Origin: a virus
Virus record (IMG/VR): IMGVR_UViG_3300042879_000951
Location: 1-35,602 of that record
Direction: 5' to 3' (one strand)
DNA length: 35,602 bases
Made by a program: the position numbers and the translations under genes. The notes under the pieces are model-generated. The model worked only from the letters and a program-made list of their open reading frames with translations, did not search any database and was not told the origin of the DNA. The first letter of the stretch is position 1. The number at the start of each line of letters is the position of its first letter. Positions 1 through 35,602 of this stretch are shown piece after piece.

Positions 1-52
1 CATCTACCGAATCCGCTTCCGTCGGCAGTCGGTCAGTTATCCATTCACTCAT
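1..52 (-). CDS. Family A (DUF551-like) small protein, 3' truncated by contig edge
   Basis: An ATG at 52 opens a frame that reads MSEWITDRLPTEADSVD and runs off the window at base 1. The first ten residues are identical to the two other complete family A genes near the right end and to the gene at 49-363. Its start overlaps the stop of that gene by 4 bp (ATGA). The upstream GAGGTG seven bases before the ATG is a usable ribosome binding site. The function is unknown. The opening resembles DUF551 phage proteins (W-I-x-x-x-x-x-LP start). What is seen is only the N-terminus; the assignment rests on identity with the paralogues. Confidence 0.75.
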   Translation of the reverse strand, partial: MSEWITDRLPTEADSVD

Positions 53-363
53 GGCAGCACCTCGTTGAATGCGTCGGCGATGCGTTGGGCGGCGTCGGCT
101 TGGTTGCGACGCAACATCGGCAAGTAATATGAAAACTTACCTGAACCGTCTAACAGAATCCACTCGGCCAATTCAGCATACCATTTGACCGCCCACCGCT
201 TCGGCTTGACGTAGGGGGCGGGTGGTACGATCGGCAGCCATGGCATACCCAGTTTAACCGATACGGCTAGATACATTTGGATATTCCCGTGTTCCGATAC
301 GAACACCCAGTCTTCAAACGCATCATCCGGGTCCGGCAGTCGGTCTGTTATCCACTCACTCAT
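49..363 (-). CDS. Family A (DUF551-like) small phage protein
   Basis: This 104-residue protein begins MSEWITDRLPDPDD and carries the block PAPYVKPKRWAVKW at about residues 48-61. It ends in an NEVLP tail after an AQRIADAFNEV segment. The start and the aromatic-proline block (W-L-P-I-V-P) resemble DUF551, a family of short phage and prophage proteins of unknown function. The first two thirds are nearly identical to the gene at 35037-35345, while residues of about 60-95 are unrelated between the two. It overlaps both neighbours by 4 bp. The codons for NEV (AACGAGGTG) also serve as the ribosome binding site of the next gene. No function can be assigned. Confidence 0.85.
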   Translation of the reverse strand: MSEWITDRLPDPDDAFEDWVFVSEHGNIQMYLAVSVKLGMPWLPIVPPAPYVKPKRWAVKWYAELAEWILLDGSGKFSYYLPMLRRNQADAAQRIADAFNEVLP

Positions 364-626
364 TCCTGCACCCTCCCTTCGGCCTTGGCGATGGCGGCGT
401 AAACTATTTTGGCGGTTCTTGGTCGTCCATCCAGCGCGTCAGGGTCATCCAATACCATTTTCAACGCCTCCAGCATCGCCGGCGCGGCTACCATCGCATG
501 CAGATATGGCGAATCGGCATCCAAACACATGCCGACGACTTTACCTTCTACCGTGCGTATGACAGGGTATTCTACGCGAAGCCCGACCATGTACCCAGAT
601 GTGAGCTTGTACTTTAGTTGTCTCAT
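360..626 (-). CDS. Family B (AAPxMLxALK / AIAKAEGR) small phage protein
   Basis: This 88-residue protein has VAAPAMLEALK near the middle and AIAKAEGRVQE at the C-terminus. This pattern (AAP, a short amphipathic helix, variable segment, AxAKAEG tail) is common in small phage proteins whose function is not known to me. The N-terminal half, from about MVGLRVEYPVIR through HAMVAAP, is identical to the truncated gene at the right end of the window except for one residue. The segment between ALK and AIAKAEGR differs completely. It overlaps both neighbours by ATGA. The GAAGGGAGGG encoding EGR lies seven bases before the next ATG and acts as its ribosome binding site. Confidence 0.85.
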   Translation of the reverse strand: MRQLKYKLTSGYMVGLRVEYPVIRTVEGKVVGMCLDADSPYLHAMVAAPAMLEALKMVLDDPDALDGRPRTAKIVYAAIAKAEGRVQE

Positions 627-967
627 CCTTCGGCCCTCCCTTCGGCCTTGGCGATGGCGGCGTGTACCGTTAACGCCACCGAATACGCATGAGCATCATC
701 GTCGGCGATTGCCGCTAAAACCTCTATCGCATCCTTCAACGCCGCCAGCATCTTAGGGGCGGCGGAAATCAGAGGCCAGTCAGCATCCGACAAGCGGACC
801 ACGTCATACAGCCTGTCGAATGGGTTTTTAAAGTATGGTTCTTGCCACAGCATCAAGTGACCGTCTGCCCCGAACATCTTACGCCTAACACCAAACTGCT
901 CGAACTCTTTTACTTTGATTGTCTCATGCCGCCACGGCCCCGGCGTGTGCTTTGGTGCTATGCTCAT
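623..967 (-). CDS. Family B small phage protein
   Basis: This 114-residue protein starts MSIAPKHTPGPWRHE and has LISAAPKMLAALKDAIEVL at about residues 67-85, then AIAKAEGRAEG at the end. The HTPGPW opening with a later AAP helix is typical of a widespread class of small phage proteins of unknown role. It is more diverged from the gene at 360-626 than that gene is from the right-end copy, so it looks like an older duplication. Four-base overlaps link it to both neighbours. Its terminal GGGAGGG is the ribosome binding site of the next gene at the same seven-base spacing seen in the other copies. Confidence 0.85.
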   Translation of the reverse strand: MSIAPKHTPGPWRHETIKVKEFEQFGVRRKMFGADGHLMLWQEPYFKNPFDRLYDVVRLSDADWPLISAAPKMLAALKDAIEVLAAIADDDAHAYSVALTVHAAIAKAEGRAEG

Positions 968-1287
968 GCTTCGCCCCTCCCTTCGGCCTTGGCGATGGCG
1001 GACTGTGCATCGTAGATTTCAGGCTGATATAGATAGCCCTGCATTTCTTTGTGTGTCTTGCCGTATCGAGCTTGCTCCCATTCCATAGCAAGCAAGTTCA
1101 ACGCCTTCAACGCCTGCAGCATCTTCGGCGCGGCGGCGATAAGATGCATAAACGCCACCGTTTCTGGGTCGTCACTTATTGAACCAAAAATGTTCCGGCT
1201 GCCGCTTCTAATGTAAAACCTGCAAGGCCTTGTCTCGTCGGTTTCGCGTACCACGCGAAGGTTGGTAAAAGATGCTTCTGTGCTCAT
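964..1287 (-). CDS. Family B small phage protein
   Basis: This 107-residue protein carries LIAAAPKMLQALKALNLLA in its middle and AIAKAEGRGEA at its end, so it belongs to the same family as the two genes that follow it. Its N-terminus (MSTEASFTNLRVV) is different, and a long variable segment of about 30 residues separates the AAP helix from the KAEGR tail. It overlaps a 44-residue gene upstream (1284-1287) and family B downstream (964-967). The function is unknown; coupling in a run of three family B genes argues that copy number or diversity is tolerated or selected. Confidence 0.85.
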   Translation of the reverse strand: MSTEASFTNLRVVRETDETRPCRFYIRSGSRNIFGSISDDPETVAFMHLIAAAPKMLQALKALNLLAMEWEQARYGKTHKEMQGYLYQPEIYDAQSAIAKAEGRGEA

Positions 1288-6157: not shown

Positions 6158-9100
6158 TTAGCCTCGTAGGTTGCGGATTTGTGCTTTGCGCATGGCCTTT
6201 AACGTCGTGCCATGATCGGCATGAACGGTAAGCTCATGTGCCGATTTGTGCAGCGTCTCCATCGTCTGCAGCTGCGTACGGATGGCCCGCAGCTCCGATC
6301 GTAGGGCGTCATTCTCGCGCTGCAACCCAACGGGCGAAGATACGCCGTTCGTTGCCAACATCGCAGCCAGGCCGGGGAACTCTGCCAATGGCTTGTCAGC
6401 GTAGATGTGTTCGAGCAGGCCGCGGTTCTTGCGGGTGATCGTCTGCGGCATGACGAACTCGCCACGGTGTACGACGCCCGCCGGCTCGTACTTGCCGCCC
6501 GTGCCCGTGTAACCACCTTCGGCAAAGCCTGCGCTTGCACGGGCTGCGGCGACCAGGCCTTTCAAGATGGCCGTAAGAATTGCAGCCTGGGCGATACCTG
6601 CGGGGCCTGCGGTCGCCAGCGATACACCGGTGATCTGCGCCACAAGGATAGGCACCAGAGCGTCGAGGGTGTCGAGCGCTGCTTTGGCTGTTGCTTTGCC
6701 TGCATCTTCACCTTGCGCGATGAGGCCAGTTAATGCACTGCCCGTGCTTGCGAGAATTAGCCCTGCCGATTCTTCGAGTGTCTTCCCGCTTTCGATCGAC
6801 TTGAGTGCTAGGCTTTCCAGCTGCTCGGACACCTGCGCAAACGCCGGCGCCAGCCCTGCTGCAAGCTGCGTCAAGATGGTGTTCTGTTGGGCCGTCGCTT
6901 CGCCCAGCTGCTGCACGGCCTCTTGATACGACAGCGTGCCGTCTGCAAGGGCCTTGTTGATCTCGGATTGCTTGTTGCCGAACTCTTCGATCTGCTTTGT
7001 GACGCCGGCGAAGTCGATAGCGTCGACGATGGCCTTGTACGCTTCGGCTTCCTTCGAGAGTGCCGCGTTGGTCAGGGCCGTGATTTCGGAAGCGTTTTTA
7101 GACCGCAGGATGCGCAGCTGTTCTTCGAGCTTTGTCTTTTCTGTTAGCTCGATGTCGTTTGTGACCTTGATCGCTGCGATGCGTTCGGCGAGGGCCTGCT
7201 CTTCATAGCGTTGGCGTATCTTGGCAATCTCGACGGCCTTCTGTTCTTCGGTCTTTAGCGACAGCTCTACGGCCTTGACCTCGTCGGCCTGCTGTTCGTC
7301 GATCAGGATTTGCCGCAGCTCACCGCGTACCTTCGCCAGTGCTTCGGCGTTGGCACGCTCGCGTTCTTCGGTCTTCGCAAAAGCATCGCGTTGGAGCTTG
7401 TCGAGATCTTCGGCATTGCGGATGCGCAGCTGCTGAATCTGGAACTCAATGTTCCGCCGTTGCGCCTCTTCGACTTTGCCGCTACCGACGATGGCGTCGA
7501 GCTGCTGTTGCAACGCCAGTTCTTGGTATTTCTGTTTGACCTGCAGGAGCGCCACCTGCCGCTCCTCTTCATTCAGCAGAGCCGAACGGGTGATCTGTGA
7601 TTCCTCTTCGGCCTGTGCGGCGGTGACCTGCAATCCGATCAGCACTTCGTCGAGCTTTTTGAGTTCTTCGGCTTGCTTCTTGGCGGCTTCAGCTGCGGCC
7701 TTGCGTGCCGCTGCTTGCTTGGCAAGCTCTTCGGCCGTCAGCCCTTGCGCCTGCGCGTTCTCATTTGTGGCGTCGGTGTTGTCTTTCGTGGCGTCGGTCG
7801 CGGCTTTGGCGACGTCCGCCGTATCCGCAAACAGGTTGTTAAGACCTAAGAACTCACGCACGGCAGCCGGTAAGCTTTGGACAAAGCCGCGGATGGCGTT
7901 GCTGATGTCGGCAAACCAGCCCTGCACGCGTGTAGCGATGGCGCCGAAGTCGATGAAGGATGCCGCCCATTGTCCAAATGCCGCCGCCGCGTTGATCACG
8001 GCGCCGACGATCTCGCTAATGACGCGGTAAAACAGCGTAATCGGCCCCAGCAACGCGCGCACGGCGACGTACACGACCTTAGATATGACGTTACCGACGG
8101 CCGTGAGTACGTTCTTAAGCGTGTCGAAGATGCCAGACCCGTCACCGGCTCCGCTAAACAGTTCGCCGAGGGCGTCGGTAACTGGCTTGACGGCAAATGC
8201 GATGGCGTCAAAAGCAGCCTTGCCGATGCTGAACAGCAACTTAAATGCGTTGACCAGCGGCGTCAATGCCAAGTCGACCAAATTACCCAGCACCGAGCCG
8301 ATCGTCTTTAGTATCTGCTCGAAATCCAGCGCATTGTCCTGCGCTTCGCCGCCGAAGACTTCCTGAAATGCGTTGGCGATGCGGTCGAAGATGCCGAAGA
8401 TGGCGCCGAGGACAGGCCCTGCGAGGGCTTTGTTTACGAAGTCCAGCACGCGGCCGATTGACGTCTGCAAGTTCTCGAGCGTGCCCGACAATGAGAACGT
8501 CGGAATGCTTGCGTCGATCGTTTCGCCGGCCTTCTTGGCTGCGGCTTCGAGACCCTTCGTGTCGAGGTTTGCGGGGTCGAACATGGACGCGAAGACCGTG
8601 CTTCCGACGTCCTCGGCAACAGAGCCGCCCAGGCTTACCAGCAGCTGCCCGCGGAAGGCCTCGGAGATCTGGCCTTTCTTGAACGACTCTTCGATGGTCG
8701 CAACGGACTGCTGGAGTACATCTTTACCTGACAGTATGCCCTTGCTCCCGTCCTCGGCGATCTTGGTTAGCTCGGCGCCGATGGTGCCGCCGACCTCTTG
8801 AAACGACTTGATAAGGTCGCCGCCCTTGATGCGGTTCTCGACCTCCTTGATGCCGTCGCCGACTTTGGCAAAGTCCTTGATGCCGGCTTCGCCAGCCTTG
8901 CCAAGAATGGCCGTAAACTCTTCGACGCTGAAGCCGGCTTCCTTCGCGTTGACGCTGAACTCGTTGATGGCGTCAAGGTAGCCCCCGACGTCACCGACAC
9001 CGTTCTGGGCGCCTGCACTCACGAGGTTTAGCGCTTCGTCGAAGGTCTTGCCAAACTGCTTCATGACAGGCGCCAGCTTGGCCACTAGCTCCGGCGTTTC

Positions 9101-10018
9101 GACGCCCAAAGCCTGCCCTGCCTGCTGTGCCCGTAATGCTACCTTGTCGAGCTGGTCGGTCGGTATCTGTTCGCCAAGCGTCTGCTTGATCGACCCCAGT
9201 ACACGCACGGCCTCTTCGGCGGTCTCGCCGAGGCCACGGCCCAATGCAGCACGGGCTTTCTCACCGAGTACGTCGAGCTCAGCACCCGACAGACCCGTCT
9301 GGATGCCGACTTGCCGAACGGCTTTGTTATAGTTCTCGCCAGCTTCGAGGGCGGCGCCGAACGAATCTGCCAAAGCGCCAAGCGCATCGGTTGCGAGACC
9401 GATTGCAGGCACGGCTCCTGCGACTGTTGCACCAAGGCCCGAGATAGCCGAAAAGTCGCCACCCTTGGCAGCGTCCAAAGCGCCACCAATGGAGCCCTTA
9501 ATCTTGTCGATAGCACCGACGACTTCCTTCGGGGGCTCAATGTCGGCCGCGGCTTGTGCCAGCTTCTGCGCTTCGATCTTAGCCTGTGCGAGCGCTACCT
9601 TCAAGTCGTTGAACTCGGCCGTGTCTTTCTTACCTGCCAACGCCAGCGATTTGAGAGCGCCTTCGATCTTAGCAAGATTTGCCGTAGCAGCCTTTTGTGC
9701 ATCTTCGAACGAATCGGCAAGCGCTTGCGTGGCGTCCTTCGGCGGGTTGATGTCGTCGACGGCGTCGGCCAGCTTCTTGGCTTCGTCTTTAGCCTTAGCA
9801 AGCGCCGTCTGAAGCTCTTTGAACTCTTGCGTGTCTTTCTTGCCTGCAACGGCAAGAGCCTTGAGCGACGCCTCTATCTTACCGACGTTTTCTTTGGCGG
9901 ACTTTTCAGCACGCTCGAATGCATCGGCAAGTTCGTTGATGCCCTTTGCGGATTCGGCCGCGGCCTTGATTGCATCAGCAGCATCGATTGCAAGTCTGTA
10001 CTTGAGTTCGTTCGCCAT
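6158..10018 (-). CDS. Tail tape measure protein
   Basis: At 1286 residues this is the longest gene. It sets tail length in siphoviruses and helps DNA exit. The N-terminus carries two tandem alpha-helical repeats of exactly 70 residues (about 29-93 and 99-163), each with AGKKDTxEFxxL and ending in NPPK or EPPK. The middle contains hydrophobic segments rich in Gly/Ala/Val, typical of the membrane-crossing part. The region of about 770-1000 is a long Lys/Glu/Gln-rich coiled coil. The C-terminus has a Gly-rich [21 protein letters not shown]-type segment, common at the end of tape measure proteins. The start overlaps the chaperone stop by ATGA. Using about 1.5 angstrom per residue, the tail would be near 190 nm, an estimate only. 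Confidence 0.93.
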
Positions 10019-15894: not shown

Positions 15895-15983
15895 CGCTTA
15901 TCCTTCGGGAGTAGTAGCGGCAGCAGACACATGATGCACAAGGCCACGCCGCCGATAAGACCTTCTTCAGGGGAGATCATCAT
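15891..15983 (-). CDS. 30-residue membrane peptide of the lysis cassette
   Basis: An ATG at 15983 overlaps the upstream stop by 4 bp (15980-15983), and the TGA at 15891-15893 overlaps the next start by 4 bp. The peptide has a short acidic start (MMISPEEG), one hydrophobic segment (about residues 9-25) ending LLPLLLP, and a basic KDKR tail. The exact fit between two genes on both sides supports translation. It could be a small holin, antiholin or lysis regulator. It is too short for most gene finders. Confidence 0.6.
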   Translation of the reverse strand: MMISPEEGLIGGVALCIMCLLPLLLPKDKR

Positions 15984-16243
15984 GGCAGAACTTTCCCATT
16001 TATTAGACGTGATGGCGGCGCTACCAATGGTATCATTGCTAGTTCTTTAACCCATAAAAAATTAGGGTTCGCGCAATATGCTATCTCTTCTGCACTAACT
16101 ATCCAATTGCCGTTGGCATCTTGTATAGGGTTAAAATAGCTATCAGGCAAGTAGGTGTTGCCACGCAATGCTTCTGCCTGCACAGTAGTTAACAAACCGG
16201 CATATTGCGACATGTTTGCTAGTGGTATCTGACTTAGCATCAT
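15980..16243 (-). CDS. Small virion-associated protein (hypothetical)
   Basis: This 87-residue protein contains TTVQAEALRG near residue 19 and QDANGNWIVSAEEIAYC near residue 41, followed by FLWVKELAMIPL. The order LrG, QDxNGNW and xxWVKxL recurs in small phage proteins encoded next to fibre-like genes, but I know no function. It lies in the AT-richer segment and overlaps the LamG-like gene by ATGA. Together the two look like one imported unit. Confidence 0.6.
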   Translation of the reverse strand: MMLSQIPLANMSQYAGLLTTVQAEALRGNTYLPDSYFNPIQDANGNWIVSAEEIAYCANPNFLWVKELAMIPLVAPPSRLINGKVLP

Positions 16244-17103
16244 ACCGAACGTCCTAACGTTTTTTGGTATCGTTGTACTGAGCTGTTGAACAAAGCAACT
16301 TCGCTATCTGTCAACCCATCGCCGAGGCTGAAAAACGAGATTGTTCTCGTGTTGTAATTTGTGAAAGTAGTGCCATTGAATAACGCTGCCACATTGAAAT
16401 ACATGTTACCCGTCAAGGTGCTAAAGTTGTTGTAGGCAACTGTATTTGTTGCGCCAATCTGTGCATCATTAACAAACATTTTTAATGTTGTTGTCGATGT
16501 CCTCGTCGATGTGTGAAAACCAGCATTGCCCGTTCGCAAAACGATAATCCGATTGTTAGCTTGGTGGCCAATAATACTTACATGGTTGCCAGTGCCATCC
16601 ACCACGCCACTTTGTTCCGATGTGTTAAATGACATGGCGTTTGTATTTGTGGCATCAAAAAGGCCATACTCATTTCGAGGCCCTTCTAAATTAGTAGAGA
16701 CATAAGCTGAAACATGTGCAGAACCAGCGCTGAAAGCCGTAGAAGGCACCAAATATGTTACGCCACGACCTGTCGTACCATTGCCAGTAATGCCGCTGGC
16801 ATTATGCGTTATACCACCTTCCCACAACATACGAAACGCCGCGTCTGTATCCTGCGGGTTTTTCAGGTTCCATTTATGAGTTGTAGCCGTCCCACCTACA
16901 AACGGATAGACGGCTTCCATCTTCGTCCATAGCTGGGCTTTCTTCAGGTCGCGCACAAGCTGCACCACGGCCCGCTGCTGCAAAGCAGACGTTATGCCCG
17001 CGGCATCCAAGAACGCCCACGCGTCGCGCTCGATGGGAAGTGCGGAGGTGCCTTTCGGGAGACGCAATGACAGGTCACTGTATCGTAGCGATCTTACACT
17101 CAC
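16240..17103 (-). CDS. Virion fibre-like protein with LamG/concanavalin-like domain
   Basis: This 287-residue protein starts with GTG at 17103, overlapping the upstream stop as GTGA. The N-terminal 60 residues (RSLRYSDLSLRLPKG and a helical region) probably dock on the virion. From about residue 62, MEAVYPFVGGTATTHKWNLK, then DTDAAFRMLWEGG and GNGTTGRG, match a phage-specific LamG-like module. It closes with FSLGDGLTDSEVALFNSSVQ, its usual end. Such beta-sandwich domains bind sugars or act as head fibres. Base composition is clearly more AT-rich than in the neighbours, and Asn/Thr content is high, which suggests recent transfer. Confidence 0.7.
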   Translation of the reverse strand: MSVRSLRYSDLSLRLPKGTSALPIERDAWAFLDAAGITSALQQRAVVQLVRDLKKAQLWTKMEAVYPFVGGTATTHKWNLKNPQDTDAAFRMLWEGGITHNASGITGNGTTGRGVTYLVPSTAFSAGSAHVSAYVSTNLEGPRNEYGLFDATNTNAMSFNTSEQSGVVDGTGNHVSIIGHQANNRIIVLRTGNAGFHTSTRTSTTTLKMFVNDAQIGATNTVAYNNFSTLTGNMYFNVAALFNGTTFTNYNTRTISFFSLGDGLTDSEVALFNSSVQRYQKTLGRSV

Positions 17104-17432
17104 GTCAGCTCAGCACCGAAGACTGTGAATGTTAGCGTGTTCGCCGCCGATTCCTGCACCGTCACGACGTCGGTAGAATCCAGCGTTGCGCCGATGGTCA
17201 TGATAGTAGAATCGTTCGCCGCCACCGTGGTGTCGTATGCGAGATAATGGCTGGAGGCCAGCGTCGCCGCATTGGGACGGATAGCCAGACGATACGTGCG
17301 TGCGGTCGTCGTCAGGTTGCAAACGACAAGCGACGAGACCACGACCTGAGTCGTAGACGGCACCGTGTACAGCGTCGACGCTGCCGTCGTGCCCGGCGTT
17401 ACCTGTCCTAAGATTTTGTAGGTCGTTGCCAT
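17100..17432 (-). CDS. Small virion beta-protein, head/tail decoration type
   Basis: This 110-residue protein begins MATTYKILGQVTPGTTAAS and continues TLYTVPSTTQVVVSSLVVCN. It ends in a strand-rich segment with TFTVFGAEL. The pattern YKILGQ-x-P, LYTVP, SSLVVCN and FGxE is shared by many small phage structural proteins next to capsid fibre genes; it likely forms a beta-sandwich that decorates the particle. It overlaps the LamG-like gene and lies one base from the upstream gene. The exact position in the virion is unknown. Confidence 0.65.
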   Translation of the reverse strand: MATTYKILGQVTPGTTAASTLYTVPSTTQVVVSSLVVCNLTTTARTYRLAIRPNAATLASSHYLAYDTTVAANDSTIMTIGATLDSTDVVTVQESAANTLTFTVFGAELT

Positions 17433-17433
17433 G

Positions 17434-17829
17434 CTATGCGCCCATCAATAGGAAAGGGTGAATGTCAGGTGCCGAGCTGCCGCCCGTCGCCGCGATCGTA
17501 AGCGTCTCGTCAGCGCCCGCGTTGTTCTTCGTTATCGTGATGTTAGAGCCGGCAACGATCTTGTCTTCGAGGTAGCCAGGGTTGTTGTCGTTCGCCGACA
17601 CGCCGGCGAAGTACAAAGCGTTAACATCATCGAGGCCGATTTCAAGTTCTTCGGCCGCGCCCGGCTGCAAAACATCAATACGGATGCCGCGGTTGCCGAC
17701 GATCTTGAACTCCAAATGATCCGGGCTTGTGTCGTCAGACGACACCCTTACCTTCGGGTCGATGTCGTCTCCCGATTGTAGCTCTTGTATCTGGCCCGAT
17801 GCCAGCACGAGGGGCTTTTTGATTGCCAT
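17434..17829 (-). CDS. Virion fibre-associated protein with two internal repeats
   Basis: This 131-residue protein starts MAIKKPLVLASGQIQELQSG and carries two related units. One has VSSDDTSPDHLEFKIVG followed by IRIDVLQPG; the other has VSANDNNPGYLEDKIVAG followed by ITITKNNAG. This V-S-x-D-x-x-P-x-x-L-x-x-KI-V repeat is common in phage fibre proteins and is thought to build short beta-helical or stalk segments. It lies in a run of small beta-rich genes after the capsid genes, so I infer a head-fibre component. Confidence 0.65.
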   Translation of the reverse strand: MAIKKPLVLASGQIQELQSGDDIDPKVRVSSDDTSPDHLEFKIVGNRGIRIDVLQPGAAEELEIGLDDVNALYFAGVSANDNNPGYLEDKIVAGSNITITKNNAGADETLTIAATGGSSAPDIHPFLLMGA

Positions 17830-24399: not shown

Positions 24400-25506
24400 T
24401 TACCGCACCCGCCCGTTAATGATGATGCGGTTGCTGACGCTGAACTCGCCCGTCTTGTCAAGGTCGACCGTGACGACGCCGTGGTTCCAGTGGTTGCGCG
24501 GGGCGTAGTGCGGGTTTAGATCGCACAGGCAGCCCATCGACCAGCCCGCGAATACCGAGCCGTCTAACGGGCGCTTGTGCATGTCAAAGGTCGTCTTGTG
24601 GACGTGACCGACTAAGATGTTGTCCTGCGCCTTCATGCGGTAGTTGCGTGCCGGGTTGACGCCGCCACTCCCGAACCATTCGTGCCCGTGGTCGATCCAC
24701 AGCTTGCCGACCGTCAGCTTAGACCGTTCGCCGATCCACTCGATACCGTGACTGCGGAGCTTTAGCAGCTCGGGCAGCGTCGCCTCAGGTAAGCCCTGCA
24801 GGGCGTCTGCGTTCTTGGCGATGTAGCGCAACCACCGCTCTTCGTGGTTCCCCTCGCGGTAGATGATACGCACCTTGTCGCCGAAGTACCGCCGCAGGTG
24901 GGCCAGCATCGCACGAGCCACGTCCAGCTCCCAAACAAAGTTGCGCTTGGCTTCGATGCGCTCGTGCGTCGAAATGTTATAGCAGTCCATCGCGTCGCCG
25001 TTAATCACTAGCGTCTGTATGCCGTAGTCCCGCAGGTGCTCGATGGCCGTAAGGTACGGGCCGTGCAGGTGGCCGTCGTCGTCGTAGAGCGCATGGAACG
25101 GCCAGTGCAAGTCAGAGATGACGCCCGTCTTACTCGATGTAACGTCACAGATGGAGTCGGGCCGTAGGTCGCCAGCGATCAGATCCGTCACACCGTCGGA
25201 CCGCTCGCGCCGTCGAAACTCGTTAGCGATCATCGACATCCCCAGCGCCTTCGCTTTGTCGTCGTTCATCTGGTCAGCACCAGTCATCGGAGCAGGTGGT
25301 AGCTCGCCCTTCTTGCGGAGTCTATACCGCTGCTGTGCTGTCAGGCCGTCGTCGTGCTGCACAAGCGCTTTCGTCGCCTGCCCACCGACAGATCCGTTGG
25401 CCCCACGTTCGGCCTTGACACGGGCGTCGCGTGCCTCGCGAATTAGCTCGAACTCTTCGGCAGTCATGCGGTACCGCTTGTTGCCTGCGCTGGTCAGCTT
25501 TGCCAT
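24400..25506 (-). CDS. Metallophosphoesterase (calcineurin-like)
   Basis: This 368-residue protein carries the full set of metal-binding motifs: SDLH (131-134), NGDAMD (169-174), GNHE (219-222), HGHE (273-276) and GHVH (300-303). These bind two metal ions and cleave phosphomonoesters or phosphodiesters. The first 125 residues (starts MAKLTSAGNKRYRMTAEEFE) are charged and helical, with AQQRYRLRKKGE-like HTH character. Its place between the methyltransferase and portal is unusual, and the DNA or RNA target is not known. AAGGAA precedes the ATG at 25506; the 13-bp overlap links it to the methyltransferase. Confidence 0.85.
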   Translation of the reverse strand: MAKLTSAGNKRYRMTAEEFELIREARDARVKAERGANGSVGGQATKALVQHDDGLTAQQRYRLRKKGELPPAPMTGADQMNDDKAKALGMSMIANEFRRRERSDGVTDLIAGDLRPDSICDVTSSKTGVISDLHWPFHALYDDDGHLHGPYLTAIEHLRDYGIQTLVINGDAMDCYNISTHERIEAKRNFVWELDVARAMLAHLRRYFGDKVRIIYREGNHEERWLRYIAKNADALQGLPEATLPELLKLRSHGIEWIGERSKLTVGKLWIDHGHEWFGSGGVNPARNYRMKAQDNILVGHVHKTTFDMHKRPLDGSVFAGWSMGCLCDLNPHYAPRNHWNHGVVTVDLDKTGEFSVSNRIIINGRVR

Positions 25507-26795
25507 AGGTTCGGTTCCTTCGTGACGTGATCGATGCGTGCCCTTGCTATCTCCAGATATTCGGCCTCGCGCTCTATGCCGATGAATCGGAAGCCTTCCA
25601 TGATGGCGGCCTTGCCCGTCGAGCCGCTGCCCATGAACGGATCTAAGATGGTGCCGTTCGGCGGGGTCACCAGCCTGCAGAGATAGCGCATGAGGTCGGT
25701 AGGCTTGACAGTGGGGTGGTGGTTGGCGTCGCCGCGGTCGGCCTTGCTCGCCTTCGCGCAGTAGAAGAAGCGGGCGGCTGAGCCGGAGTCTGGCAATCTA
25801 TCTTCGCGTGTGCGTTGGCGCTCTTTGCCCTTGCTTTGTCCGTTTGTAGGTTGTTGAGTTGTTCCGCAAAATCCACCACTGTTCGTCTGCGGAAACAACC
25901 CCACCACCTCCTCGCTGCCGTCGTGGATCAGGTTGGCGGGCCAGCGGCCTTGTCCAGATTCGCATGGGATGCGAGACCCGTCCACATTCACCCCACCCGT
26001 CCCCCACGTTAGGACGTTGTTCGCCACCGTGCCGACGATCGGCTTGCGTGCCACCGTGATAGGCTCAAGGGCGGGCTTTAATGCCGTGCCCCATCCGGCC
26101 CACTCCTTAGCCGCAGCCGTGGCGGGGGCGGTGATGTCAACAAGTCCGCGGGCGTTGCGGGAGTCCGTGAATCGGCCTACGGTTGCGCCGGTCCCACCAG
26201 ACAGGCCGCTCGACTTTTCGCCCACCACCTCGCGCTCGGCCTCGTCGTATAGCAGCGCGAACTCATTAGGAAGCGACAACATCTCCCTCACCCGCTCCCA
26301 GTGATGACGCGGAGGCATTCCCCCACGATGGTCGGTTCGCGCCCAGTAGCAAGATGAGGATTTGATTCCCAACGCGCGGTCAATATCCGCATGTTTCATG
26401 TCAGATTTCTCAACAGCTGCAGCGTATGATTCAGAGAATGCACGCCATGCCAGCGCGTCGCCGCCAGCCTTGTCGATCGCCTTACTTACGTCCAGCGACT
26501 TCGGGAACCCCGACCCGTACACCCACGCGATCATGTCGCGTATCTCAAAGCCCGCATCCTCGATGCGTACCGCCATGCGATGTTGCGTCCGCGTGCCTGC
26601 AAAGGCCAGCAGGTGGCCACCGGGCTTCAGCACCCGCAGGCACTCACGCCACACGGCCTCGTCGGGAACGTCGTAGTCCCATCGCTTGCCCATGAAGGAC
26701 AGGCCATAGGGCGGGTCTGTGACGATCGCGTCGATGCTGTTATCGGTCATCGTGCGCAGGACATCGAGACAGTCGCCGTGCTTCAGTTCAAACAT
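25494..26795 (-). CDS. DNA methyltransferase, beta-class (N4-C or N6-A)
   Basis: This 433-residue enzyme transfers a methyl group from SAM to an amino group of a base. The catalytic motif TDPPYG is near the N-terminus (26-31) and the SAM-binding motif LDPFMGSGSTG is near the C-terminus (384-394), the order of the beta class. VKPTDLMRYLCRL precedes the latter, a typical motif of this group. The long middle part should hold target recognition; the sequence RIPCESGQGRWPANLI fits similar phage enzymes. No restriction partner is present, so it is an orphan, probably shielding phage DNA. Its start overlaps the terminase stop by 8 bp. Confidence 0.92.
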   Translation of the reverse strand: MFELKHGDCLDVLRTMTDNSIDAIVTDPPYGLSFMGKRWDYDVPDEAVWRECLRVLKPGGHLLAFAGTRTQHRMAVRIEDAGFEIRDMIAWVYGSGFPKSLDVSKAIDKAGGDALAWRAFSESYAAAVEKSDMKHADIDRALGIKSSSCYWARTDHRGGMPPRHHWERVREMLSLPNEFALLYDEAEREVVGEKSSGLSGGTGATVGRFTDSRNARGLVDITAPATAAAKEWAGWGTALKPALEPITVARKPIVGTVANNVLTWGTGGVNVDGSRIPCESGQGRWPANLIHDGSEEVVGLFPQTNSGGFCGTTQQPTNGQSKGKERQRTREDRLPDSGSAARFFYCAKASKADRGDANHHPTVKPTDLMRYLCRLVTPPNGTILDPFMGSGSTGKAAIMEGFRFIGIEREAEYLEIARARIDHVTKEPNLWQS

Positions 26796-27951
26796 TGTAG
26801 ACCCTCACTCCAGAATCAAAGCCCTTCATGGCATACACCACCGCATCGACCATGTCGTCGTGGTCGCCCTCGGGGAACTGCAGTAGCTCGCCCTCGAACT
26901 CTGGCGGCAGGGTCGCGCTGTGATAGACGAGGCCGTGCTCGTACTTGCCTAGCGTCGGCAGGAAGCGGCTGCGCTTGTCACGGTCGGGATGGATCGCGTT
27001 GACGTAGTATTCGCGCATCTCCATCTTCAGGTCTTCGACGATTGCCGCCTGGTACTGTACCGCCTCGATGTTGACGAACGTCGGCTGCCACTTCGCGGCC
27101 ATCTTCTTGATCGCCGTCTTCGTGTCGTTGAAACCCATTTGCCGACGCAACACGTCGACGATGTAGTAACGGTTGTCTACCTTGCCAACGACGGCGATGG
27201 CCGTATAGTCGGCGCCCTCTTTCGTACTGATGGCAAGGTCGACGCCCATGTTATACTCGATGCGTTCGCCCTCGGCAGGGTGGCCGTAGCGGATGTCCTC
27301 GCGGTTGACAAGGGCGCCCTGCAAGTCGATGAACTCCGCCATGTACTCCTGACGGAATACGATGTCAGGCGTGTTCGGGTCTTCCTTCGCGGCCATGATC
27401 TCCCCCACGTCGATGAATGGGTTTGACGTCGTCGGCATCTGCCATGACTGCCAAGCCGGGTGCTTGGTGTCGTACAGGGTCTTGAAATAGTTACCGCCCG
27501 CAGGGGTCGACAGAAAGTAGGCATCACCGAGGAAGTCCGCAAGAGCCGGCCGCACCACCTTCGTCCATGCATCCTCGAGGTTCGGGCTGTGGGCTGCCTC
27601 GTCGATGATGGCACGGGCGTAACGGTTGCCACGGATCCCGTCGAACCTGTGCAGGCCAAACCAGTCCATCCGCGCGCCGTTGGTGAACAGCAGCACGCCC
27701 TCGCTGATCTTCGCATCCTTCAGGATCGGGCGGTAAAACTCGGTAGCCTCTGACCATCGCTTTTCGTAGTCAACGGCCGTCGGGGTCATGTACACCACCG
27801 GCATACGCTGCGCGATCGTCTCCAGTGCCAAGGCAAACGCCAAGCGGCTTTTACCCCACCGTCGCCCGCAGCAGATCACGTTGAACCGCTTACGTTCGTC
27901 GATGACGCGGCGCTGGCCGTCGTGAAGGTCGATCGTTACGTTATCCTTCAT
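26788..27951 (-). CDS. Terminase large subunit
   Basis: The start at 27951 (MKDNVTIDLHDGQRRVID) is chosen because a strong GGAGG lies eight bases upstream; a longer frame would run into the small subunit gene. The 387-residue motor has Walker A CCGRRWGKS (27-35), Walker B RAIIDEA (113-119), the coupling motif LSTPAG (147-152), then the nuclease domain with acidic residues at MGVDLAI (Asp238), IEAV (Glu296) and GDHDDMVDA (about 362-370). It pumps and cuts DNA during packaging. It overlaps the small subunit by 11 bp. Confidence 0.95.
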   Translation of the reverse strand: MKDNVTIDLHDGQRRVIDERKRFNVICCGRRWGKSRLAFALALETIAQRMPVVYMTPTAVDYEKRWSEATEFYRPILKDAKISEGVLLFTNGARMDWFGLHRFDGIRGNRYARAIIDEAAHSPNLEDAWTKVVRPALADFLGDAYFLSTPAGGNYFKTLYDTKHPAWQSWQMPTTSNPFIDVGEIMAAKEDPNTPDIVFRQEYMAEFIDLQGALVNREDIRYGHPAEGERIEYNMGVDLAISTKEGADYTAIAVVGKVDNRYYIVDVLRRQMGFNDTKTAIKKMAAKWQPTFVNIEAVQYQAAIVEDLKMEMREYYVNAIHPDRDKRSRFLPTLGKYEHGLVYHSATLPPEFEGELLQFPEGDHDDMVDAVVYAMKGFDSGVRVYNV

Positions 27952-28249
27952 CGGTCTCACCTCCGCCCGTGAGCAGCTTGGCAGTGCCAAAGTTCAGTTT
28001 GATGTCCCGGGTGTCGTTGGTCGACACTTCGACCTGTTGACGCTGCAGGCGAGGCTTGACGAACTCGAGGATCGTGAGGTAATGCTTCATGAACGTCTCC
28101 GGGTCGGATGACTCCAGTTCGCGCATGTATCTCTCAAGGCCGTCGTTCATGATGTAGTCTTGCAGCTTCAGCCATAGCTCGCGCTTCGGTGTGGGTTTGT
28201 GCGGACCCACAGCGTAGCTATTGCCCTTCAGGTCGTGACGTGCTGCCAC
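27941..28249 (-). CDS. Terminase small subunit (probable)
   Basis: This 102-residue protein starts with GTG at 28249. It has PHKPTPKRELWLKLQDYI near residues 16-33, then LTILEFVKPRLQRQQVEV at about 58-75, a layout seen in short terminase small subunits (a loop-basic start followed by helices and an EFVxPKLQR segment). It lies directly upstream of the large subunit. It should bind the packaging site on phage DNA. The family match is from memory, so confidence is moderate. Confidence 0.7.
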   Translation of the reverse strand: MAARHDLKGNSYAVGPHKPTPKRELWLKLQDYIMNDGLERYMRELESSDPETFMKHYLTILEFVKPRLQRQQVEVSTNDTRDIKLNFGTAKLLTGGGETDEG

Positions 28250-31377: not shown

Positions 31378-32079
31378 TTAGAACGGGAGGCCATCGGGTA
31401 CGTCTGCCGTCGTTGCGGCCTCGCGTACTTCGGCGATGGATGTACGGACGGGCTTAGGCGATGCGTATGCTGACGTGTCCTGAATGAATGCCGACTTCTC
31501 GCACTTGGCTGCGATCTCTTCGGCGGCCTTACACAAGAGTTCGATGATGGGCGTAGCGTCTGGCGTCATCTTGCCGTTGACTTTGACCATCGCCATCTCG
31601 GGGAACGGCTGCGCCCCGTTGCGCTTGTCTTCTGGCACGCGGTGCGATACCCACCGACGCGGCAGCTCCTTATCGCCTTGCGTGACCTTGCAACCGACGA
31701 AGTACTTGTCGGGGTCGTTCTTGTCGGCCATCTTCCACGGTACGAGCGTTACAGGCTTGACAGGGTCGAACGCATCGGACGCCAGATAGCTGATGACAGC
31801 CCGTGCATACGATCCGTCCATGCGGTCGGTGATGATGTACGTATCGTCACCGTCTGCGAAGTTGAAGCAGAACTGTGATCCATAGTCGTTGTCCGTCATG
31901 CGGATGTTCTGCAGGCGTCCGGTGAACGCCTCATGCCTCTGCTCGTATACGGTGTTGCCGACCTTGTTGACGCGCGCGATGAAGCCCTCGCGTGGGTCTC
32001 GTGACCGCAATACGATTTTGCCGTCGGCGAACGACGCCCACGTGGCGACGCTCTGACCTGTTGCGTGATGAAAACCCAT
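31378..32079 (-). CDS. Probable single-stranded DNA-binding protein
   Basis: This 233-residue protein starts MGFHHATGQSVATWASFADG and is preceded by AAGAGG seven bases upstream. It has a beta-rich body (LRSRDPREGFIARVNKVGN, then FNFADGDDTYIITDR) and a C-terminus rich in Ala/Asp that ends DVPDGLPF. An acidic tail ending in Pro-Phe is the classic protein-interaction tip of bacterial and phage SSBs (DxxDIPF). The gene lies between the VRR-NUC nuclease and primase, where an SSB is expected. The OB fold itself is not proven by eye. Most likely it is a T7 gp2.5- or SSB-like protein. Confidence 0.65.
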   Translation of the reverse strand: MGFHHATGQSVATWASFADGKIVLRSRDPREGFIARVNKVGNTVYEQRHEAFTGRLQNIRMTDNDYGSQFCFNFADGDDTYIITDRMDGSYARAVISYLASDAFDPVKPVTLVPWKMADKNDPDKYFVGCKVTQGDKELPRRWVSHRVPEDKRNGAQPFPEMAMVKVNGKMTPDATPIIELLCKAAEEIAAKCEKSAFIQDTSAYASPKPVRTSIAEVREAATTADVPDGLPF

Positions 32080-32542: not shown

Positions 32543-32963
32543 ACGGCGCCTCACGGTCGTACTTGACTCCGTATCTGTCTAGCACCGTGCGGACGTCACT
32601 ACGGGCACGCACGACGCCTTCGTGGGGAACGTAAACCTTGATCTCGCGGACGATCGGCACCGGCGCACGGTCTTCGATGAACAGCCGGGCGGCCTTCTGG
32701 CAGTAGAGCACTGCGGTATCGATCGTCGGAATGCTCTCGATCACCTCATCGTGTCCGTGACGTTGGAGCATCTCGTCGCGTCTTATGACGGCTGCGTACA
32801 GTGTCGTCAGCATCGCATCGGCATCGTTGTAGTCGTGCGTAAATGCTACGCTGTTACGCTTCTGTGTGCCCTGTACGTTGAAGGATATGGCAATGAAGGG
32901 CCGCCCTGTTCTCCAGTTGAGGGCCATACCGATATAGCGCAGGGGATGGATGGAGCGCATCAT
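32529..32963 (-). CDS. Hypothetical protein in replication module
   Basis: This 144-residue protein starts MMRSIHPLRYIGMALNWRTG and overlaps the nuclease gene upstream by ATGA. It has SFNVQGTQKRNSVAFTHD at about 28-45, then a helix-rich middle (AMLTTLYAAVIRRDEMLQRH) and a polar end. The layout (short beta part, helices) is found in many small phage replication accessories, but I do not recognise a family or a catalytic motif. Confidence 0.6.
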   Translation of the reverse strand: MMRSIHPLRYIGMALNWRTGRPFIAISFNVQGTQKRNSVAFTHDYNDADAMLTTLYAAVIRRDEMLQRHGHDEVIESIPTIDTAVLYCQKAARLFIEDRAPVPIVREIKVYVPHEGVVRARSDVRTVLDRYGVKYDREAPYGSA

Positions 32964-33829
32964 ACGGCGGCTCCTTCGACGTCATCCAGCAGCACGACGG
33001 CATCTTCGGTAATGGTCTGGCCGGTGAGGGCTTGCCACTTCGCCCGTGCGCTGTCGTCGGGGTTTTCGATGGTGATGGTCGGCATCTCCATACCCAGACC
33101 GACGGGGCCGCTGACAGTGAGGTAGGGGCGTGGTGAGGCGTTGTGCATCGCGTGCCAAAGCTCGCACCGCAGCGAGGCCTCGTTAGGCTTGCAAGCGGCC
33201 GTCTGGTTGACGAGCTTGTACGTCGGCGTCTTCTGCCAGTCGTTAGGGTGCCAGTTGAACGTGAAGACTACGCCCTGACCTAGTGCCTCGCGGTACTGTT
33301 CGTTGAACGCGATGCGGTACATATCCAGCTGCACGGCATGGTCTTCGTAGCTGCCGCCTGACTTGATGTCGATGATGGCAAGCTCGCGGCTCTTGCCGAA
33401 ATCGAGCCAGCAGACAAGGTCACACGTACCGGCGATCTTGAGCGTACGGCTGACCAAGGGGATCTCTACGGCGACCGGCTCGACGTTGCGCTCCTTGCAG
33501 AAGGCGACCCATGACATGAGGTCTTTGGCCTTGCGTTCGCTGTCGGGCGTAACGACTTCGCCGCTCATGATCCGGGCGATGTCGATGTGCAGCGAAGTCC
33601 CGTATTCCGCGGCATCGTCACGAAGTCGGTTGGCCTCCTGCATGCCGTGCTTGGCATACCAAACAAGAAGGCCGTACGGCGTCGGCGACGTGTCACGGAT
33701 CACGGTCGTGACAGATGGGTACCACGTGACGGCGCCCGTCTCGTCGACGTGAGCGTAGTAGCGTGTCCCGTTGCGATCCTCGCGGAAGATCGGCTCGGGT
33801 GTGGGCAGGTCGGGATGGATGTAGTTCAC
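32960..33829 (-). CDS. RecB/Cas4-like PD-(D/E)xK exonuclease
   Basis: The start is a GTG at 33829 that overlaps the upstream stop as GTGA; the longer frame from 33856 lacks this coupling. The 289-residue product has YPSVTTVIRDTSP (37-49), YGTSLHIDIARI with His81, AGTCDLV with Asp137, AIIDIKSG with Asp154 and Lys156, and the helix motif QLDMYRIAF at 167-175. This is the complete set of the RecB-like nuclease fold. It probably resects DNA ends for recombination, with the nearby SSB-like protein coating the product. No partner annealing protein is seen in the window. Confidence 0.88.
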   Translation of the reverse strand: MNYIHPDLPTPEPIFREDRNGTRYYAHVDETGAVTWYPSVTTVIRDTSPTPYGLLVWYAKHGMQEANRLRDDAAEYGTSLHIDIARIMSGEVVTPDSERKAKDLMSWVAFCKERNVEPVAVEIPLVSRTLKIAGTCDLVCWLDFGKSRELAIIDIKSGGSYEDHAVQLDMYRIAFNEQYREALGQGVVFTFNWHPNDWQKTPTYKLVNQTAACKPNEASLRCELWHAMHNASPRPYLTVSGPVGLGMEMPTITIENPDDSARAKWQALTGQTITEDAVVLLDDVEGAAV

Positions 33830-33984
33830 GGCGTAACCTCTGCAATGATCTTGCACACGTAGGCTATGGCCTCGGCGCGTGTTGTGAAATACCGCGTCTC
33901 GCCACGTGACGCGGTTGTTGTTACCATGTATGGTGTCGTCTTGCCGAGCGTGTACTGAATGTGATATGCATGGGCTTTGCTCAT
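33826..33984 (-). CDS. 52-residue hypothetical protein
   Basis: An ATG at 33984 overlaps the upstream stop by 4 bp, and the TGA at 33826-33828 overlaps the GTG start of the nuclease gene. The product begins MSKAHAYHIQYTLGKTTPYM, then has SRGETRYFTTRAEAIAYVCK, a beta-turn-beta-helix shape typical of small phage proteins. It has no recognised function. Coupling on both sides supports translation, and the gene was too short for the usual cut-off. Confidence 0.7.
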   Translation of the reverse strand: MSKAHAYHIQYTLGKTTPYMVTTTASRGETRYFTTRAEAIAYVCKIIAEVTP

Positions 33985-34529: not shown

Positions 34530-34735
34530 TGGTCGTACTCCTCCCATGCTCTCAGTGCCTTGGCTACGTCCTGCGCCAGCTCGGTGTCTGGTGCTAGCGC
34601 CTTGTCGACATCTGCCAGCACGTAGGCCATACCCTGCGCTACGTGTCGCAGCTTGCGGACGTCGTCCCACCGGCACCATTGCCCCCTTGGATGTTCGGGC
34701 GATACGACTGCTCCGTGGTGGTTGTATCGCTTCAT
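34526..34735 (-). CDS. Small hypothetical protein of the right array
   Basis: The ATG at 34735 (MKRYNHHGAVVSPEHPRGQW) overlaps the family A stop by 4 bp, and the stop overlaps the next start by 4 bp. The 69-residue product has an Arg/Trp-rich start and a helical second half (MAYVLADVDKALAPDTELAQ). It carries no AAP or KAEGR motif. It is preceded by the GAGGTC of the family A NEVMP tail, which serves as its ribosome binding site. The function is unknown. Confidence 0.75.
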   Translation of the reverse strand: MKRYNHHGAVVSPEHPRGQWCRWDDVRKLRHVAQGMAYVLADVDKALAPDTELAQDVAKALRAWEEYDQ

Positions 34736-35040
34736 GGCATGACCTCGTTGTAGACGTCGGCAATACGCTGGGCGGCTGCCGTCGTAAGGTTCTTGTCTAA
34801 TACCAGCACTACAACATCCTCGTCTAACAAACACCAGATCGCATAGTCCTCGTACCATTTGACCGCCCACCGCTTCGGCTTGACGTAGGGGGCGGGTGTG
34901 GGAATTGGCATCCACGGCTGGCCTTCGTTGACACCGTCATAAGACCATATCAATACACCTTCGTCCTGATCCCATAAAAGCACACAATAATGAACCGCAT
35001 CTTCCTCCGTCGGCAGTCGGTCAGTTATCCACTCACTCAT
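34732..35040 (-). CDS. Family A (DUF551-like) small phage protein
   Basis: This 102-residue protein starts at the MSEWITDRLPTEED methionine, not at the longer upstream start that runs into its neighbour. It carries QPWMPIPTPAPYVKPKRWAV and ends AAAQRIADVYNEVMP. The middle (WYEDYAIWCLLDEDVVVLVL) differs from both paralogues. The W-M-P-I-P-x-P block is the best DUF551 match of the set. ATGA overlaps link it on both sides. The function is unknown; its paralogues flank the contig ends. Confidence 0.85.
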   Translation of the reverse strand: MSEWITDRLPTEEDAVHYCVLLWDQDEGVLIWSYDGVNEGQPWMPIPTPAPYVKPKRWAVKWYEDYAIWCLLDEDVVVLVLDKNLTTAAAQRIADVYNEVMP

Positions 35041-35345
35041 GGCATCACCTCGTTGTAGATGTCGCAGATGCGCTGTGCGGCGGCGGCTTGGCTTGAGTCT
35101 AAATGTAGATAACCCATAACGGCATATGTGTCTATGACATGCCAGCAATTAGTAAGGGCATGCCACTGCACCGCCCACCGCTTCGGCTTGACGTAGGGGG
35201 CTGGTGGTACGATCGGCAGCCATGGCATACCCAGTTTAACCGATACGGCTAGATACATTTGGATATTCCCGTGTTCCGATACGAACACCCAGTCATCAAA
35301 CGCATCATCCGGGTCCGGCAGTCGGTCTGTTATCCATTCACTCAT
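35037..35345 (-). CDS. Family A (DUF551-like) small phage protein
   Basis: This 102-residue protein is nearly identical to the gene at 49-363 over its first two thirds (214 bases differ at three positions across 35170-35383). Then it switches to a different middle (QWHALTNCWHVIDTYAVMGY) before the shared AAAQRI and NEVMP end. It overlaps both neighbours by ATGA. It is the clearest example of the constant-variable-constant layout of this array. The role is unknown. Confidence 0.85.
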   Translation of the reverse strand: MSEWITDRLPDPDDAFDDWVFVSEHGNIQMYLAVSVKLGMPWLPIVPPAPYVKPKRWAVQWHALTNCWHVIDTYAVMGYLHLDSSQAAAAQRICDIYNEVMP

Positions 35346-35383
35346 TCCTGCACCCTCCCTTCGGCCTTGGCGATGGCGGCGTA
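35170..35383. repeat. Near-identical repeat of 188-401 spanning the A/B cassette junction
   Basis: This 214-base stretch matches 188-401 except at three positions. It covers the constant part of family A and the 3' end of family B. The bases on each side diverge at once, with variable spacers of different length (58 bases at 402-459 against 73 bases at 35384-35456) before homology resumes. This is repeat homology with swapped inserts, not a simple duplication. Confidence 0.85.
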
Positions 35384-35602
35384 TGCCTTATCCCATGCGG
35401 CCAGTTCTTCGTTTGACACCTCGCACGGGCACTCCCGTTTGAAGTTACATAGAACCTTCAACGCCTCCAGCATCTCCGGCGCGGCTACCATCGCATGCAG
35501 ATATGGCGAATCGGCATCCAAACACATGCCGACGACTTTACCTTCTACCGTGCGTATGACAGGGTATTCTACGCGAAGCCCGACCATGTACCCAGATGTG
35601 AG
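35342..35602 (-). CDS. Family B small phage protein, 5' truncated by contig edge
   Basis: The frame starts outside the window, with LTSGYMVGLRVEYPVIR as the first visible residues, as in the gene at 360-626, whose start lies upstream in the same context (MRQLKYK). It has VAAPEMLEALK, a new middle with CNFKRECPCEVSNEELAAW, and AIAKAEGRVQE at the end. The last 127 bases match 479-605 exactly. So the gene is intact but cut by the assembly edge, not by mutation. Confidence 0.8.
   Translation of the reverse strand, partial: LTSGYMVGLRVEYPVIRTVEGKVVGMCLDADSPYLHAMVAAPEMLEALKVLCNFKRECPCEVSNEELAAWDKAYAAIAKAEGRVQE
35476..35602. repeat. 127-bp exact direct repeat of 479-605 ending at the contig edge
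   Basis: These bases equal 479-605 at every position; base 35475 (T) against 478 (G) is the first difference. The match is therefore exactly 127 bases and ends at the last base of the window. It lies within a longer block, 35457-35602 against 460-605, with that single mismatch. A match of this exact length at a contig end is the mark of a de Bruijn graph break. Confidence 0.9.

Follow-up and report, generated by a model that had tools for sequence, protein, structure and literature searches.

Probable strain alleles of one phage locus at the two ends of a viral contig, and exchange of modules within two families of small proteins

The two ends of the viral contig IMGVR_UViG_3300042879_000951 carry small genes of two families, A and B, that agree closely over long constant blocks and differ in short inserts between them. 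This raises the questions of whether one genome holds two copies of the same gene cassette or whether the ends are versions of a single locus, and of how the inserts came to differ. We analysed the contig over its entire length (35,602 bp, hereafter the window) together with homologous arrays from other metagenome contigs, and consider it probable that the two ends represent different strain alleles of a single locus on a circular map, with modules swapped by recombination at conserved blocks.

Probable alleles at the ends of one contig

Two constant blocks are common to the ends: 214 bp at 188-401 and 35170-35383, with three mismatches (exact runs of 32, 92, 41 and 46 bp), and 146 bp at 460-605 and 35457-35602, with one mismatch (478 versus 35475). 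Judged from the sequences, this match is far beyond chance. The inserts between the blocks, of 58 bp (402-459) and 73 bp (35384-35456), cannot be aligned, and the C-terminal part of gene A (approximately 104-175 versus 35092-35157) is likewise unalignable as DNA. The coordinates, mismatch counts and insert lengths that a preliminary description had given for this constant-variable-constant layout were all reproduced exactly on recomputation. Its statement that the variable segments are unrelated holds for the DNA, but not entirely for the proteins of family A, whose C modules can be partly aligned (W...D ... AAQRI-DIYNEV-P) and would fill one predicted beta-beta-beta-alpha slot. The GC content of the inserts, 39-53% in four short pieces against 58.6% for the genome, hints at import.

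All array genes lie on the minus strand (Table 1). In order of decreasing coordinate, the left end holds a conserved small gene, three B genes, one A gene and the start of another, and the right end a B gene cut by the contig end, two A genes and a second conserved small gene. The two families had been described as alternating or repeating; the actual array is B-B-B-A-A between the two conserved genes. In family A proteins (approximately 100 aa), the hinge PYVKPKRW connects two lobes; those of family B (approximately 85-115 aa) are made up of an N-terminal part and a helical hairpin, joined at AAPEMLEALK, and end in AAIAKAEG.

Table 1. Coordinates of array genes, their parts and associated features in the window.
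Feature	Position	Strand	Profile match
Family A gene start, cut by left contig end	1..52	-	
Family A gene, left allele	49..363	-	
Family B gene, left allele; 98% aa identity to L016, C module included (99% nt)	360..626	-	
Variable insert, C module of the left B allele	402..459	-	
Family B gene of the HTPGPW type, with a C module like that in the L089/L128 gene	623..967	-	
Family B gene; N module clusters with L016, L137, L128, L166 and L169, whose C modules differ	964..1287	-	
Conserved small gene, left array boundary; 96% aa identity in L016	1284..1430	-	
Phage exonuclease, possible part of a recombination system	32960..33856	-	phrog_298, E 1e-36
Conserved small gene, right array boundary; 97% aa identity in L016, 98% in L013, 72% in L012	34526..34735	-	
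Second family A gene; C module and downstream 96% nt identity to L016, N module unrelated	34732..35040	-	
Right allele of the family A gene, with constant N module and hinge and a C module (approximately 35092-35157) swapped relative to 49-363	35037..35345	-	
Right allele of the family B gene, truncated at its start by the contig end	35342..35602	-	phrog_1273, E 5e-9
Modules of the right B allele	N 35457-35602; C 35384-35456 (variable insert); constant tail/junction 35342-35383	-	
Exact 127-bp match, putative de Bruijn graph vertex at the last base of the contig	479..605 / 35476..35602		

A near relative of the window, L016 (34,648 bp), aligns with it in stretches that are mostly 96-98% identical in nucleotides, and crosses the locus once, without interruption, from the left-end genes of the window through B, B and A to its right-end genes. 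Since L016 runs through uninterrupted, the ends of the window meet on a circular map, where the left and right B-A-A units fall on one position. The sequence comparison thus makes it most likely that the two 'copies' are alternative alleles of a single locus on that map. Their earlier reading as two loci is most probably incorrect, given the same B-A-A order at both ends, the single locus of L016 and the only 127-mer that is repeated in the window, which ends at its very last base. JGI assemblies are made by metaSPAdes with k-mer sizes of 33-127 (PMC10604447), and from this general practice, with its k of 127, we infer that the end of the contig marks a graph vertex at which one allele rejoins the other. 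Closing the ends gives approximately 35.0 kb; the figure for L016, in which the end overlap lies at another place, is 34.5 kb.

If the genome did contain a tandem duplication whose repeat was exact for 127 bp or more, the contig ends would bear an identical signature, and tandem paralogues of A and B do exist (three adjacent B genes in the window, and eight A genes in L108, a contig of 260 kb). Nevertheless, a single unit is found at the corresponding place in both L016 and L012, the window ends correspond gene for gene, the closed length is near that of L016, and the contig terminates exactly at the unique 127-mer, so that a genome truly holding two tandem B-A-A units, with the contig broken within a longer array, appears unlikely.

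L016 is itself a mosaic relative to the window. It keeps the N part of the B gene at 964-1287 with a changed C part, follows the left allele along the whole length of the B gene at 360-626, and has an A gene in which the C module of 34732-35040 is kept (96%) beside an unrelated N module. The contig of L016, also classed as linear, has ends that overlap almost exactly (L126, 1-159, versus L127, 34463-34648). Variant end overlaps of this kind seem to conceal circular genomes from end-repeat detection, and strain-variant contig ends labelled 'linear' can pass for repeats within one genome. Elsewhere, the window and L016 are strongly diverged, or one has been replaced, at 6972-9997 (part of the tape measure gene), 15979-17783 (structural region), 25494-26795 (methyltransferase-like) and 26788-27990 (terminase), which are further mosaic places in this genome. 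The terminase large subunit encoded by the last of these matches a psiM2-type NCBIfam model, and its best matches among cultured phages include haloarchaeal viruses (approximately 24-28% identity).

Exchange of modules across contigs

The 46 family A loci and the window yielded 27 distinct A genes that could be divided into modules, with the start motif, the hinge (PYVKPKRW) and the tail as boundaries. Clustering at 60% amino acid identity gave 14 N clusters and 16 C clusters, which occur together in 22 combinations. C modules are at most 35% identical in 23 of the 42 pairs whose N modules share at least 70% of their amino acids, and N modules at most 35% identical in 5 of the 17 pairs whose C modules do so. 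The four-gamete set is complete, N4 and N5 each occurring with both C2 and C4. At the DNA level, L130 and L140 are nearly identical in N (99%) and dissimilar in C (51%), while the match lies in C for L130 and L132 (C 95%, N 55%) and for L140 and L138 (C 97%, N 65%); L132 and L138, the N5 pair of the set, reach only 74% in N, with 51% in C. N and C identities correlate weakly (r = 0.38, p = 0.0015), which indicates that shuffling is not free. Estimated breakpoints in 25 A pairs fall between 8 codons before and 16 codons after the start of the hinge, a result that describes the range of positions rather than the existence of a switch, since the pairs were preselected for differing modules. In the window, inspection by eye likens the left A C module to C7 (KFSYYLPML) and the right one to C2 (CWHVID...VMGYLHL) of other phages.

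Two further arrangements were seen among the A loci. At L166:2842-3462 and L167:304-936, a single open frame of 207-211 codons joins the N half of an A gene, in frame and at the hinge, with a B gene, an apparent by-product of hinge recombination. L108:3735-8444, in the 260 kb viral contig, holds its eight family A genes within 5 kb, several of which end in a common tail, LLNYHKELNNE, unlike that of the window.

Family B behaves similarly: its 29 genes fall into 16 N clusters and 20 C clusters, combined in 24 ways, and a four-gamete set is formed by L169, L166, L156 and L144. The corresponding DNA comparisons match in N for L169 and L166 (N 98%, C 48%) and for L156 and L144 (N 89%, C 47%), and in C for L169 and L156 (C 92%, N 52%) and for L166 and L144 (C 89%, N 54%).

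In loci of 6.3 kb, L130 has just 218 bp in common with L132 and 367 bp in common with L140, while L129, L132 and L151 share approximately 5 kb at 89-92% identity yet differ in their modules. Modules frequently show 89-99% DNA identity beside unrelated partners, at times in contigs that have hardly any other DNA in common, which indicates that modules move independently of genomes. Fragments at least 70% identical are joined to unrelated remainders, as expected of intragenic mosaicism, and traces of homology (hinge, tail and start blocks) are present around the exchanged pieces. The preliminary description had proposed that inserts are traded between constant flanks, to be checked by comparing homologous arrays from metagenomes, and had named ordinary point divergence in place as the contrary pattern. 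The comparison across metagenome contigs found variable segments exchanged among loci, with four-gamete combinations at the DNA level in both families and across contigs, which supports the proposal and contradicts the contrary pattern.

Recombination at conserved blocks and its alternatives

Homologous recombination at hinges and other conserved blocks is likely the best mechanism for these exchanges, although the enzyme acting is no more than a candidate. The window ends are probably two strain alleles of one locus in a phage genome of approximately 35 kb that is circular or circularly permuted, and the N and C parts of A and B behave as modules that can be exchanged. The comparisons demonstrate how the alleles are arranged relative to L016 and that modules are exchanged in the DNA of different contigs. 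Under the recombination model, short conserved blocks (start/junction, hinge, tail) would supply homology between co-infecting phages or prophages, and a module of approximately 60-150 bp would be replaced in frame with its flanks retained. As for enzymes, RecT is encoded in the contig of L130 and Erf in that of L140; neither these nor Rad52 or a DUF2815 SSB were detected in the window, where the exonuclease is present. No identifying match was found for 31378-32079 of the window.

The data come from metagenome contigs, and de Bruijn assembly can join strains at common k-mers. However, for the A genes of L140 and L132, whose N and C modules both differ, the longest exact match is 22 bp, at the hinge, compared with k-mers of 33-127; hinge matches of approximately 22 bp, below the smallest cited k-mer (33), are too short to produce assembler chimeras. 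Combinations also recur in independent metagenomes (N5C2 in 5 contigs; N5C7, N5C4, B N0C2 and B N9C1 in at least two each), and it is very improbable that the apparent swaps are chimeras. The weak protein similarity and the single predicted fold slot retained by the A C modules would suit inserts that are simply fast-evolving parts of vertically inherited genes. Against this, modules recur at 89-97% DNA identity beside unrelated partners in contigs with little other DNA in common, and complete four-gamete sets occur in both families, leaving ordinary divergence with hardly any credibility. The constant-variable-constant layout itself recalls a dedicated diversification system, be it a diversity-generating retroelement, an invertase shufflon or integron-like cassettes, and the preliminary description had suggested a diversification locus while noting that no reverse transcriptase or recombinase lay nearby. 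The latter is confirmed: no reverse transcriptase (PF00078, controls positive) or serine resolvase was found in nine contigs, and a tyrosine integrase in one of the nine only, the 66 kb contig of L130, so that it is absent from the other eight, including the window. No inverted repeats of at least 30 bp occur in the window; the shufflon pairing of a serine or tyrosine recombinase with inverted repeats is thus lacking there, and no such enzyme was found in the contig of L016. The variable parts are, moreover, whole unrelated modules rather than adenine-targeted substitutions. Dedicated machinery is thus unsupported and, as the driver of the swaps, extremely improbable, and ordinary homologous recombination between phages explains the data.

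Predicted proteins, role and known systems

The exchanged pieces can be placed on predicted structures. In the AlphaFold model of A (pLDDT 90, pTM 0.50), the N lobe is a beta-hairpin and the C lobe has a beta-beta-beta-alpha arrangement; the hinge lies between them, and the exchange units therefore coincide with the predicted lobes. In the model of B (pLDDT 78), N-terminal strands are followed by a C-terminal helical hairpin whose first long helix starts at the common AAP-ML block, and the exchange unit is the far part of this predicted hairpin. Within modules, pN/pS is 0.21 when pooled (0.87 in the small group C4, on 8 changes); such constrained substitutions, indicating purifying selection, argue that A and B are working proteins. 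Foldseek returned no match for model A in the PDB at E ≤ 0.001, and VIA-align gave weak rows over residues 53-102 (best Z 3.7). The hairpin of model B (window 623-967) aligns with cullin-9 (Z 6.9). Several Tad1 (anti-Thoeris) entries also resemble it (Z 4.5-5.5 over approximately 42 residues), perhaps merely through a common helix arrangement; Tad1 was not returned by a profile search of PDB sequences, and we do not claim this likeness.

Family B corresponds by profile to phrog_1273 ('HTPGPW' proteins), with E values from 7e-5 to 5e-9 for the four B genes of the window; a literature search found no paper on the HTPGPW motif. Family A had been called DUF551-like. This label finds no support, as none of 38 A proteins matched it in a Pfam search at E ≤ 0.1, and a direct PF04448 search of five contigs gave no match at E ≤ 10 with a positive Escherichia coli control. 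A search of 50,697 records of cultured phages gave no match to family A, nor did a scan of 84,980 genomes with a degenerate pattern yield a confirmed relative.

The small size of the proteins, their position beside replication genes and the precedent of Ea22 suggest, as a best guess by analogy, that A and B may be accessory early or host-interaction proteins. That they form a selected combinatorial repertoire, in which new N/C combinations alter a host or rival-phage target, for example in anti-defence or host takeover, is a rather doubtful possibility. Should the proteins prove to affect host defences, their combinations of modules would offer a natural library in which to look for the targets. 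In these tiny proteins, modules of approximately 60-150 bp move between contigs with almost no other DNA in common.

De Paepe et al. (2014, PMC3945230) showed that Rad52-like recombinases of phage lambda and its relatives build mosaics where homology is short and diverged. The mosaics described here are similarly bounded by short diverged homology, and RecT or Erf, both members of the Rad52-like class, is encoded in two partner contigs; the window differs in that, beside its exonuclease, no known single-strand annealing protein was detected in it. Smug et al. (2023, PMC10684548) found recent exchange of fragments across families in receptor-binding proteins only. As in that domain mosaicism, recent sub-gene fragments (at least 70-90% identity) are common to otherwise different phage proteins, but here they belong to two families of approximately 100 aa with no sign of receptor binding, in which both halves are swapped around short hinges. 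The case is sub-gene mosaicism of an already known general type, in small proteins that show no sign of belonging to the receptor-binding class. Ea22, from lambda and Stx phages, is a small early protein whose C-terminal domains can replace one another, a portable DUF551 being among them (PMC10834534). Both N and C parts are exchanged in A and B, in contrast to Ea22, and no sequence relation was found (PF04448 and Pfam searches negative for A). Nevertheless, Ea22 too is encoded by a small phage gene near a recombination region and combines a common N-terminal part with unrelated, interchangeable C-terminal domains, and by this analogy it would be the nearest functional counterpart of the two families.
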